DNA of 64,000 bases from Roseibacillus persicicus (GTDB lineage: Bacteria > Verrucomicrobiota > Verrucomicrobiia > Verrucomicrobiales > Akkermansiaceae), in assembly GCF_014651675.1 (NCBI RefSeq), contig NZ_BMXI01000009.1:124001-188000 (forward strand), read 5' to 3'. Below, piece by piece: positions 1 through 6,274 of the stretch. Each line of letters begins with the position of its first letter. Position 1 is the stretch's first letter. The notes beneath the pieces are model-generated. The model did no database searches and was not told where the DNA came from. It was given only the letters and a program-made list of their open reading frames with translations. Both the position numbers and the translations under genes were made by a program.

Positions 1-554
1 ATTTTTCCGCTTTGCAGGGCTTTCAGCGCCTGTTCGATGTGAGGCGCTCGTGCGGGTGGCTGACTGCTTCGTTTGGTCTCGGGATAATCGGTTTCGAGGA
101 AGGTTGCGAGGTCTTGGGGCTTGGGTCGGAGGTAGCGAATGACGCCACTTTCATCGACCAGGAGAGTGATGGGTACTGCGGTTACTCCCAAGACGTTCAA
201 GGGATCCATCAGCACGGGAAAGTCCATTTTCTTCCACTGCAGGAAGAGCGCCATGCGGTCGCCATATTGCTCTGGCGCAATGCCAAAGACTTGCAACTTT
301 CCGTCCGCGACGAGGTTCTTCGTTCTGTCGTGCCACCCGGGCACGTGCTTGCGACAACCTGCTCACCAGGAGGCAAAGAAGTGGACGAGCGATTTTTTGC
401 CGAGAAAGGAGTCGGTGCTCAGGGCGCTGTGGTCCGTTGCGGTTGGCAGGGTGAGGGAGGGAAACGGTTGGCCCGGGGAGAGGTTAGCTTCTTGCGCGTT
501 GAGACTCAGGAGGCTGAGCAGAAGAAGCCCGATCGTGGTCAGTTTCGTTCGCAT
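1..554 (-). CDS. Thioredoxin-fold (TlpA/redoxin-like) selenoprotein with UxxC active site; 3' end beyond window
   Basis: Reading from the ATG at 554, a signal peptide (about residues 1-20, hydrophobic LTTIGLLLLSLLSL) leads into a redoxin domain. At residue 64 the frame meets TGA (363-365) in the context FFASW-TGA-AGCRKH, exactly where TlpA/thioredoxin proteins carry the first Cys of CxxC. The frame stays open after the TGA to the window edge. It encodes normal redoxin elements: VFGIAPEQ, DFPVLMDP and the cis-Pro segment VPITLLVDE. TGA is an ordinary stop elsewhere here, for example in the ATGA gene overlaps, so general recoding to Trp is unlikely and selenocysteine is the best reading. Expected role: thiol/selenol-disulfide redox chemistry outside the cytoplasm. 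It is the last gene of a minus-strand operon and overlaps the upstream ATPase gene by 71 bp. No strong Shine-Dalgarno is visible. The alternatives are a sequencing error (TGC to TGA) or a recent nonsense mutation. Confidence 0.8.
326..365 (-). promoter_or_regulatory. Candidate bacterial SECIS element following the in-frame TGA
   Basis: On the minus strand the TGA (365-363) is followed after 18 nt by a perfect 5-bp hairpin GTGCC-CGGGT-GGCAC (344-330). It can extend below a bulge by pairing TGTC (355-352) with GACA (329-326). The apical loop contains GG and lies about 24-28 nt after the TGA. Bacterial SECIS hairpins sit inside the coding region just after the UGA, and usually carry a G-rich (GG or GU) apical loop within roughly 16-37 nt, so the geometry fits. 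SelB binding is inferred. Confidence 0.6.
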
Positions 555-1122
555 AGTTGTCGTAGAGACTAAGCCAGAGTTCCCGCAAGTTCCCATTCTT
601 TTTCCGGAAAATGGCGGGAAGACTCTCGTGCAGTTCGCGGGAAGCTGCGGGTTCGATTTTTTCTAACAGGGTCTGGGCCAGCAGGGGATCGCTTTTGAGA
701 TGGAGAAGGGTGGGAAGACGGGAAAGGTGATGACGGGCCGCGAGGTAGCCACCCAGGGTGAGGCTCAATTTGCGCAAAGCCTTCCGCTCGGAACCAGCAA
801 GGTGCCCCTCGCCATCGACAAAGAGAATGACATCCTGTTGACCGCGAATGGACTCTAACAGTTGTCGCTGTTCCTGATCGAGTTGTCGTGAATCCCGGTG
901 GAGGAAAAGGCGTTCCACTCGGAAGCGGGGTTGCAGGCGCTGGGCAAAGGCATCGAGAAAAGTGGTTTTTCCGCTGCCGTGATGTCCTCGCACTGCCGCC
1001 CTGCGGGAAAGCTTTTCCCAACGACTCTCGATGGCCTCCCACGTGGTGCCCGAGAGAGTGGGATCGAAGGGGAGCCGTCGTTGAATTCGGTCGGGAGCGA
1101 AAGGATTGAGGTGGGCCTTCAT
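484..1122 (-). CDS. AAA-type P-loop ATPase, small, function unknown
   Basis: A 212-residue protein with a clear Walker A motif GHHGSGKT (residues 46-53) and a Walker B-like strand VILFVDGEG (about 98-106), so nucleotide binding is well supported. The rest resembles small AAA ATPases with a helical C-terminal half, but no specific family is recognised. Its ATG overlaps the stop of the upstream 140-residue gene (ATGA at 1119-1122), pointing to translational coupling. The 3' 71 bp overlap the start of the selenoprotein gene in another frame. It sits in one operon with a DUF3592 membrane protein and an arrestin-like protein. A cytoplasmic ATPase serving a membrane assembly is a guess from context only. 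Confidence 0.7.
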   Translation of the reverse strand: MKAHLNPFAPDRIQRRLPFDPTLSGTTWEAIESRWEKLSRRAAVRGHHGSGKTTFLDAFAQRLQPRFRVERLFLHRDSRQLDQEQRQLLESIRGQQDVILFVDGEGHLAGSERKALRKLSLTLGGYLAARHHLSRLPTLLHLKSDPLLAQTLLEKIEPAASRELHESLPAIFRKKNGNLRELWLSLYDNYANETDHDRASSAQPPESQRARS

Positions 1123-1541
1123 GAATTCCTCTCGACCGAGAAAATGGCGACCTTTCCCTTGGGAGTGGAGTCCTTGAGAGCCTCGAGTTGCATCTCTTCC
1201 CCGCTGGGAGAAAGGAGAAAGGGCACGAGGTCGAGGGATTGCTCTTTCTCATCCACCACCTCCACGGCCCACGCCAGCGTAATCAGCTTACCCGCGAAGC
1301 TGTAGGGCGCGGGCGGGAGTTTCCATGCGAAGGGAACGAGCGAGTCGTGGGGGCTGATTTCCTGCCGGTGAAGAACCTTGGCCTCCTCGTCGCCACGTCC
1401 TCGGGTGAACCAAAAGACGCGCAATTCCATCTTCTTGGCCGGGAGAGATCCGGTGATGCGCACCCGGCCGGTGAGTTCTTGAAACGGTTGGTGGTGAAAG
1501 TGATCGAGCTCGATCTCGACGCCTGGGGATGGTGTGCTCAT
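1119..1541 (-). CDS. Arrestin-like beta-sandwich protein, hypothetical
   Basis: A 140-residue soluble protein without signal peptide. The N-terminal pattern VEIELD...FQELTGRVRITG resembles the first strands of arrestin-like/Vps26-like beta-sandwiches, where a bound polypeptide or ligand is held between two sheets. This is pattern similarity only. The C-terminal domain of the upstream DUF3592 protein looks similar, so the two may be related modules. The gene is coupled at both ends by 4-bp ATGA overlaps (1538-1541 and 1119-1122), so it is certainly part of the operon. No catalytic residues are evident. Confidence 0.6.
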   Translation of the reverse strand: MSTPSPGVEIELDHFHHQPFQELTGRVRITGSLPAKKMELRVFWFTRGRGDEEAKVLHRQEISPHDSLVPFAWKLPPAPYSFAGKLITLAWAVEVVDEKEQSLDLVPFLLSPSGEEMQLEALKDSTPKGKVAIFSVERNS

Positions 1542-4891: not shown

Positions 4892-5578
4892 ATGAAAAGG
4901 GATGTGTTACCAATTCGCTCCCTTGGTGTGAATTTCTATGTTCTGCGCGATTCGCGGGGACTTTTTCTCATCGACGGAGGTTTCGTTGGTGGACCGGCGC
5001 AACTCCGAAGGGGTTTGCGGAAGCGAGGTTGGGAAGATGAGCCCGTTGTCGGTATCCTTTTAACGCATGGTCACCTCGACCACATTCTCAATGTCGCTCA
5101 ACTCGTTAAGGATACTGGGGCGTGGGTGGCTGCTCCCAGGGCTGATCAAGCGCACTATCAGGGCGCTGCGAGCTATAGAGGCCCGGGGCGGGTGACTGCT
5201 GCTCTTGAGGCCTGCGGGAAACGGGTCTTTGGGTTCCGCCCCTTTGACTCGACTCACCTTCTCGAGCCGGAGGATGAACTCGATGTTTGGGAGGGGCTTC
5301 GCGTGATCTCATTACCGGGTCATACCGCAGGGCATTCTGGCTTCTATTGTGCCCAGCGTAAGCTCCTGTTTTGCGGGGACCTCTTTGCTAGCTTCGCTGG
5401 TTTTTCCCATCTTCCCCCGCCATTTTTTAATGAAAATTCCCGTTTGGCGCGGAAAAGCATCGAGACCGCTTTGGCCCTGGAGCTGGAGGGAGTGCTTCCC
5501 AATCACTGCGACGGGGCTGAACCAGAGGTGCATCTAAAGCGGTTGCTCCTTCTGCGTGAGCGCTGGTCACAGCCCTAG
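4892..5578 (+). CDS. MBL-fold metallo-hydrolase
   Basis: A 228-residue metallo-beta-lactamase-fold enzyme. The metal-binding signature is THGHLDH (residues 58-64), followed by LPGHTAGH, CGDLF and the C-terminal PNHCDG, giving the usual binuclear zinc or iron site. There is no signal peptide, so it should be cytoplasmic. The small size and the GHTAGHS stretch fit glyoxalase II-like or general thioester/lactone hydrolases, but the substrate is unknown. It starts 28 nt after tRNA-Thr and is convergent with the gene at 5567-6274, the two 3' ends overlapping by 12 bp. Confidence 0.85.
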   Translation: MKRDVLPIRSLGVNFYVLRDSRGLFLIDGGFVGGPAQLRRGLRKRGWEDEPVVGILLTHGHLDHILNVAQLVKDTGAWVAAPRADQAHYQGAASYRGPGRVTAALEACGKRVFGFRPFDSTHLLEPEDELDVWEGLRVISLPGHTAGHSGFYCAQRKLLFCGDLFASFAGFSHLPPPFFNENSRLARKSIETALALELEGVLPNHCDGAEPEVHLKRLLLLRERWSQP

Positions 5579-6274
5579 CGAAAAGATGGTTTTCGCTGCC
5601 TTGGTGCTGATTTTCTGGTTTTTGGCGTAGGCGGCAGCTGCTGCTTGGAGGTAGTCGTCCGGCTTGCCGTTTTTCAGCCAAACTTCGATGGCATCGTGAA
5701 GGATGAAAGAACCGGGATACATCAATTGGCTGGTGAGAAGCAGGGGATTTGCCTGATAGCGTTGAAAGTGGGGGGCAAAGTAGCGGTCACTAATGCAACA
5801 AAGAACAATTGTTGGGGTTTGCTTTTTAGCTGTTTTGGTTTGTTCGGGAAGAGTGGGAGAGGTGTCCATCAAGCCGTTGTGGCCAATGAAAGCGACGAGT
5901 TTGTCGGGGCCGCCCGACTGGAGGGCCGCAAAGTAATCTTCGAGACACTTCTTCATCTCGCTGCCCCGATAGGCGTGCGCCGTGAGACGGGTGTCGGTCC
6001 CAATATGTTGGAACTCCAGGGTCTCGATGAGATACGTTTTGTCGGGATTGGTGGAGCTGAGTAGTTTCCACTTTTTGCTCTTCTTGAAGTATCTGCTCAT
6101 GCCGTCCGAGCAGCCCCAGTAGAGATTGTTCGGGGCGTCATCACCATTGCCGATCTTGGCTCCCACGGGAACGATGCCTTGGGTCTTGTTGTCACAAAGG
6201 GCCACGAACACCTCGATCGTTTTGGCTGGAAGCAGGGCGAGGGTGGACAGGTAGAGGAGGAGAAACCATTTCAT
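5567..6274 (-). CDS. Secreted protein with caspase/gingipain-like His-Cys arrangement, hypothetical
   Basis: A 235-residue protein with a signal peptide (MKWFLLLYLSTLALLPAKT). The mature part starts with a strand-like segment EVFVALCDNKTQG and has FIGHNG (about 129-134) and, about 25 residues later, IVLCCIS (about 156-162). That is the order and spacing of the catalytic histidine and cysteine in clan CD (caspase/gingipain-like) folds. This is a fold guess from motif layout; activity is unproven. It is not obviously linked to its neighbours. Confidence 0.6.
   Translation of the reverse strand: MKWFLLLYLSTLALLPAKTIEVFVALCDNKTQGIVPVGAKIGNGDDAPNNLYWGCSDGMSRYFKKSKKWKLLSSTNPDKTYLIETLEFQHIGTDTRLTAHAYRGSEMKKCLEDYFAALQSGGPDKLVAFIGHNGLMDTSPTLPEQTKTAKKQTPTIVLCCISDRYFAPHFQRYQANPLLLTSQLMYPGSFILHDAIEVWLKNGKPDDYLQAAAAAYAKNQKISTKAAKTIFSLGL

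Follow-up and report, generated by a model that had tools for sequence, protein, structure and literature searches.

The minus-strand gene that begins at position 554 almost certainly encodes a selenoprotein: we infer from sequence that the UGA at codon 64 is translated as selenocysteine (Sec), as the initial annotation had proposed, and this is supported by the orthologues, by the Sec machinery of the genome and by the constraint on a hairpin that follows the UGA. All positions refer to the window, i.e. the whole 64,000-nucleotide stretch of Roseibacillus persicicus DNA that was analysed. Taken as a whole, our tentative reading is of a lineage-restricted family that uses Sec without exception (no Cys form was found), in which one exported chain may hold counterparts of the two partners in a periplasmic electron transfer, namely a Sec domain like CcmG/ResA and a domain like nDsbD with TPR helices between them, and so form a self-contained extracytoplasmic selenenylsulfide relay.

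The in-frame TGA and its orthologues

The frame opens with the ATG at 554-552 and reads MRTKLTTIGLLLLSLLSLNAQ...VHFFASW-TGA-AGCRKHVPGWH. Its sole in-frame TGA lies, as had been noted initially, precisely at the first Cys of a CxxC, in this case the WCxxC of TlpA/ResA type, giving the motif W-U-A-G-C. The earlier observation that the frame stays open after the TGA also held: it continues beyond the window to a TAA at G000:C9:123229-123231 (G000 being the R. persicicus genome), 772 bases past the edge, to make a protein of 441 residues. Window position 1 is merely the window edge and not a gene boundary. The ATG at 554 is the likely start of the gene, and an alternative ATG is found 14 codons upstream at 596.

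1-554, minus strand: 5' part of the 441-codon predicted selenoprotein gene (codons 1-184 plus two bases), the remainder running to G000:C9:123229; L018:5229-6554 (minus strand) in locus coordinates
363-365, minus strand: TGA codon 64, read as Sec (the U of UAGC) on the basis of a TGA in 13/13 orthologues and Sec machinery in the genome

We searched 289 genomes of the same order with one protein as the query, a search that more distant members may escape, and found 12 further orthologues, each with exactly one TGA and each 38-43% identical to the R. persicicus protein. Twelve of the 13 sequences are complete and one is interrupted by a contig end. The TGA occupies the same codon in all of them, with the protein conserved on both sides, and the common context is WUAGCR-x-(H/R)-VP-(G/V)-WH; because 12 orthologues in other genomes carry it at this codon, the TGA is not there by chance. 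The TGA considered by itself, and the position of the R. persicicus copy on the longest branch of the protein tree, might suggest a nonsense mutation, a sequencing error or a decaying pseudogene, and a lone nonsense mutation was the danger named in the initial annotation. This explanation was rejected and its probability is negligible, as it is refuted by the identical TGA in 12 genomes at this level of protein divergence and by the retention of the frame and of invariant residues downstream; indeed, the long branch makes the retained TGA of the R. persicicus copy more telling. The suggestion that homologues might alternate between Sec and Cys fared less well: the TGA is kept at the redox position throughout, but neither TGC nor TGT was seen at codon 64 in any orthologue found among the 289 genomes of the order. 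The family therefore does not look Sec/Cys-alternating, at least in the sampled genomes.

The carriers belong to seven genera in two families, which the protein tree does not separate, and the gene is patchy in its distribution, the three other species of the genus of R. persicicus being SelA-positive and without a copy. When 388 genomes from across the phylum were searched with single protein and profile queries, the R. persicicus gene alone matched; since the order is thinly sampled in that set, this result indicates rarity rather than absence. The C-terminal half, used as a query in 58 relatives, recovered the same genes plus one contig-end fragment (G633), and no Cys version. In assembled genome contigs the only relatives were matches to the thioredoxin domain, from other groups and at 26-38% identity, and no relatives were found in viral contigs and plasmids.

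The relatives also contained other genes of interest. At L038 the SelA-positive genome G250 has what looks like a decayed version of the C-terminal half, WRRRLQQSGPRLDKPYPF, probably a remnant of the gene. In genome G152 the orthologue is immediately preceded by a second redoxin gene with an in-frame TGA (L074, about 5440-5970, plus strand; SRAHWUPFCVKQL, a UxxC of Prx-like type), and this genome thus likely has two selenoprotein genes in tandem. The SelA-positive genome G239 has, at L044 (minus strand), another TlpA-like gene with a TGA at the same active-site place (DFWGTWUGPCRGAVPHL).

Gene neighbourhoods were compared at nine loci. The selenoprotein itself was the only gene common to them, and no conserved neighbour hints at a substrate. 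The one long common neighbourhood is between two genomes of a single genus. Two or three loci have a gene for a DUF7133/cytochrome c protein close by, in differing order. In R. persicicus, just outside the window and on the opposite strand, an FMN-binding NosR/RnfG-like membrane protein (L018:2733-5218, plus strand) sits beside an ApbE-like flavin transferase, the pair adjoining and converging on the selenoprotein gene without a conserved link to it. On the other side, at 484-1122 (minus strand), is a gene for a P-loop protein whose weak resemblance to STAND NTPases stays under the Pfam cut-off; this gene shares 71 bases at its 3' end with the start of the selenoprotein gene, and at its other end its ATG and the TGA stop of the preceding gene overlap.

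Sec machinery and a putative SECIS hairpin

The initial annotation had proposed a search for selA, selB, selD and tRNA-Sec, the absence of which would have told against it, and all four were found in the genome. SelA (459 bits), SelB (324 bits) and SelD (374 bits) all score over their curated cut-offs; the tRNA-Sec scores 59.6 bits, over the Rfam cut-off, and ARAGORN calls it a tRNA-SeC with anticodon tca. The SelD gene (L022, G000:C13:136723-137652) has an in-frame TGA of its own at CAGUASK and is itself likely to encode a selenoprotein, the known Sec site of SelD being UxxK (table in PMC13188914); it is therefore very probable that the organism has one or more further genes with Sec. The genome has retained the Sec system even though neither a formate dehydrogenase alpha subunit nor a Sec formate dehydrogenase was detected over the NCBIfam cut-off. 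FdhA is a frequent reason for a bacterium to keep the Sec system. Across the order, 12 of the 13 carriers are SelA-positive, compared with 93 of all 289 genomes (hypergeometric p 7e-6, uncorrected for relatedness), and the thirteenth carrier, a fragmented assembly (G200), has a tRNA-Sec of 60.9 bits.

Two other ways of reading the codon have to be weighed against these data. If TGA had been reassigned to another amino acid throughout the genome, the frame would likewise be open. However, TGA is a normal stop in the same genome, as had been assumed initially: it terminates the neighbouring gene at 1119-1541 (minus strand), and it is also the terminal stop of four of the orthologues themselves. 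This excludes reassignment for practical purposes, and the presence of Sec machinery that co-occurs with the gene, together with a constrained hairpin after the TGA, points the same way. Alternatively, the TGA could be a regulated stop that gives a short product of 63 residues, with readthrough being minor or not involving Sec. Some termination is to be expected, because Sec insertion in bacteria is partial, as indicated in PMC4513850, but a product cut off ahead of the second active-site residue would lack the thioredoxin fold, and the strong conservation downstream of the TGA and the SelA-positive status of the carriers make this second reading very improbable. Decoding as Sec, the preferred reading, would be carried out by SelB with Sec-tRNA(Sec). 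The hairpin would guide it, from a stem that begins at a distance of 17 nt downstream of the UGA.

329-345, minus strand: putative bacterial SECIS hairpin CGUGCC-CGGGU-GGCACG, with 98.7% stem pairing in 13 sequences and synonymous constraint, in agreement with the model in PMC13188914
342-344, minus strand: GTG codon of Val71, part of the hairpin stem and the sole invariant codon among 60 conserved degenerate sites

The bacterial SECIS model (PMC13188914) has a stem of 4-16 bp, a loop of 3-9 nt placed 16-37 nt from the UGA, a G in the first two loop positions and a minimum free energy of -7.5 kcal/mol or lower. The R. persicicus hairpin agrees with it in every respect, having a 6-bp stem, a 5-nt loop that is separated from the UGA by 23 nt and has G as its second base, and an energy of -8.5 kcal/mol. 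Among the 12 relatives, the bare 17-nt hairpin is weaker than -7.5 in three (-5.6 to -6.9) and stands at -7.4 in one. Pairing holds in 98.7% of stem cells across the alignment; the 13 hairpins are closely alike in sequence, and a two-sided change is seen at one stem pair only, the outermost, which goes from C-G to U-A in two sequences. Much of the palindrome is dictated by the encoded motif HVPGWH, which makes synonymous choice the more telling test. We considered 60 sites, i.e. conserved positions whose residues have four- or six-fold degeneracy, and only at Val71 is the codon invariant: it is GTG in 13/13 sequences, against 139 of the 345 Val codons in these genes. The summed hairpin energy was below that of all 2000 synonymous recodings (z -4.4), with significance for a gene taken singly being reached in one gene only. 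The 83-nt region around the R. persicicus TGA was no more stable than shuffled sequence.

Domain architecture and a possible relay

The initial annotation had suggested an exported protein of thioredoxin fold with redoxin motifs. The redoxin domain is there, but the protein is far larger than that and also contains TPR helices and, at its C-terminus, a domain resembling DsbD-alpha. From the N-terminus it runs through a stretch like a signal peptide, the thioredoxin domain of ResA/CcmG type that holds the UxxC, TPR helices and the YIWRRRIQQ motif, and it ends in a beta-domain with a Cx6C. Export is predicted from the N-terminus, whose likeness to a signal peptide is read directly from the residues.

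492-554, minus strand: signal-peptide-like N-terminus MRTKLTTIGLLLLSLLSLNAQ, from which export is predicted
81-485, minus strand: residues 24-158, domain of thioredoxin fold resembling ResA/CcmG (passes the Pfam cut-offs of AhpC-TSA and Redoxin; VIA Z 11.7-12.4)
354-356, minus strand: Cys67, second residue of the UxxC pair, invariant in 13 sequences
171-173, minus strand: Pro128, invariant, at the presumed cis-proline place of the thioredoxin fold

Structural alignment of the thioredoxin domain gave VIA Z scores of 11.7-12.4 over 126-132 residues against ResA/DsbE/CcmG-type oxidoreductases, and its sequence profile matches are StoA, ResA and CcmG. The fold, with its WUxxC and cis-proline place, is that of the ResA/CcmG type, and W63, C67 and P128 are invariant in the 13 sequences. 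The peroxiredoxin motif PxxxTxxC/U was not found, FASWUAGC having no T at position -3 of the U. After the TPR helices comes an almost invariant stretch, QYIWRRRIQQ(Y/F)GP(R/K)L(D/N)KPY; the segment QYIWRRRIQQYGPRLDKPYSFYDWV (residues 247-271 of the R. persicicus protein P0001) is, in all orthologues as well, the most conserved part outside the active site.

These features suggest that the protein is very probably an exported Sec-dependent redox enzyme of thioredoxin fold and, somewhat less surely, that it works as an extracytoplasmic thiol-disulfide reductase. Sec64 would be the attacking residue of the UAGC in the ResA/CcmG-like domain, forming with the substrate a mixed selenenylsulfide that Cys67 would resolve, and the net role would be to reduce oxidised thiols, disulfides or others, in the extracytoplasmic space.

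The Cx6C pair of the C-terminal domain, Cys419/Cys426, is conserved in 12/12 complete sequences while elsewhere in the domain identity to the R. persicicus copy falls to 26-30%, which suggests a redox role. Folded alone, this immunoglobulin-like domain was predicted with a pLDDT of 84, and when solved structures were re-aligned to the model the top five VIA rows were all nDsbD/DsbD-alpha (Z 7.6-8.3, rmsd 3.3-3.8 over 100-104 residues). The model places Cys419 and Cys426 on opposite strands of the last beta-hairpin, as C103 and C109 are placed in nDsbD, which passes electrons to CcmG, DsbC and DsbG (PMC7347389). The domain is therefore likely nDsbD-like on the model. At another locus the genome encodes a membrane protein of DsbD type, and between the nDsbD-like region of that protein and the C-terminal domain no sequence similarity was detectable.

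A relay in cis, for which we see a chance slightly short of even, would most likely have the Cys419/Cys426 domain, linked through the TPR helices, act as nDsbD does: it would take electrons from a membrane protein of DsbD type and hand them on to the Sec domain of its own chain; we infer the direction of flow, i.e. towards the Sec domain. There is also a fair-sized possibility, if short of even, that the protein is a selenoprotein whose C-terminal Ig-like domain only stabilises it or binds substrate, the Sec thioredoxin domain working unaided, either as a reductase of ResA/TlpA kind or as a peroxidase-like enzyme that other proteins reduce. The nDsbD fold match is modest, with Z 8.3 at best and no sequence match; other Ig-like folds score close behind it in VIA, and in Foldseek ApaG-like and adaptin-ear folds rank above it; the AhpC-TSA and Redoxin profiles, moreover, also take in peroxiredoxins. 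The persistence of the Cx6C in every complete sequence, despite the divergence around it, argues against this alternative.

Relation to known systems

The findings add to the bacterial selenoproteome a well-supported family that lies outside the family libraries tested, and whose gene standard gene callers would end at residue 63 or begin at the GTG after the TGA. As no Cys version occurs among 13 divergent members, the family is a useful case for asking why some enzymes keep Sec, and the proposed pairing, on a single polypeptide, of a Sec reductase with an nDsbD-like domain offers a testable mechanism. It looks like a real family of exported Sec redox enzymes, apparently uncatalogued as judged from the family libraries and published descriptions compared here. 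Nothing specific was found in the literature on selenoproteins of Verrucomicrobia. NHLRC2, which has a Trx-like domain and a C-terminal beta-domain, was considered and set aside; the NHLRC2 paper makes no mention of DsbD.

Sec sites in domains of redoxin/TlpA type are already known. Table 1 of PMC13188914 lists as thioredoxin-fold UxxC selenoproteins a Prx-like thiol:disulfide oxidoreductase (PF00578), a Redoxin family protein (PF08534) and a thiol-disulfide isomerase-like protein (cd02966). Like the present protein, these have Sec first in the UxxC of such a domain; they differ, by the table description alone, in that no TPR or nDsbD-like part is named for them, including for the 'Redoxin family protein' HEU0032618.1. 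Among the NCBIfam and Pfam models tested none covers the whole protein, and no NCBIfam cut-off was reached. The best NCBIfam match of the whole protein is NF041054 (WAxxUGC_long, ResA-like WAxxUGC), which all 13 members match weakly over the ResA-like domain (best E 1e-17), with the Sec equivalent by motif; however, the R. persicicus protein scores 52.2 bits against a cut-off of 300, and its motif is WUAGC (UxxC) rather than UGC.

The exported Cys oxidoreductases CcmG/DsbE, ResA and StoA are alike in fold and in the WxxxC placement of the active site, whereas the present protein has Sec for the first Cys and additional TPR and C-terminal domains; because the NCBIfam cut-offs of these families were not reached, it is ResA/DsbE/StoA-like and not a member of them. 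The GOS fusion 'Prx-like 3 / Unknown_3', as described in PMC2398784, likewise couples a pfam08534-like UxxC selenodomain to a Cys-containing domain of unknown function, but by that description Unknown_3 has three conserved Cys, including a CxxC, and the domain here has two, as Cx6C. Finally, nDsbD/DsbD-alpha resembles the C-terminal domain in its fold and in having a Cys pair on a beta-hairpin; it differs in that nDsbD has a Cx5C (C103/C109) and is fused to a membrane domain, whereas the present domain, which has no detectable sequence similarity to it, has a Cx6C and is fused to a Sec thioredoxin domain.
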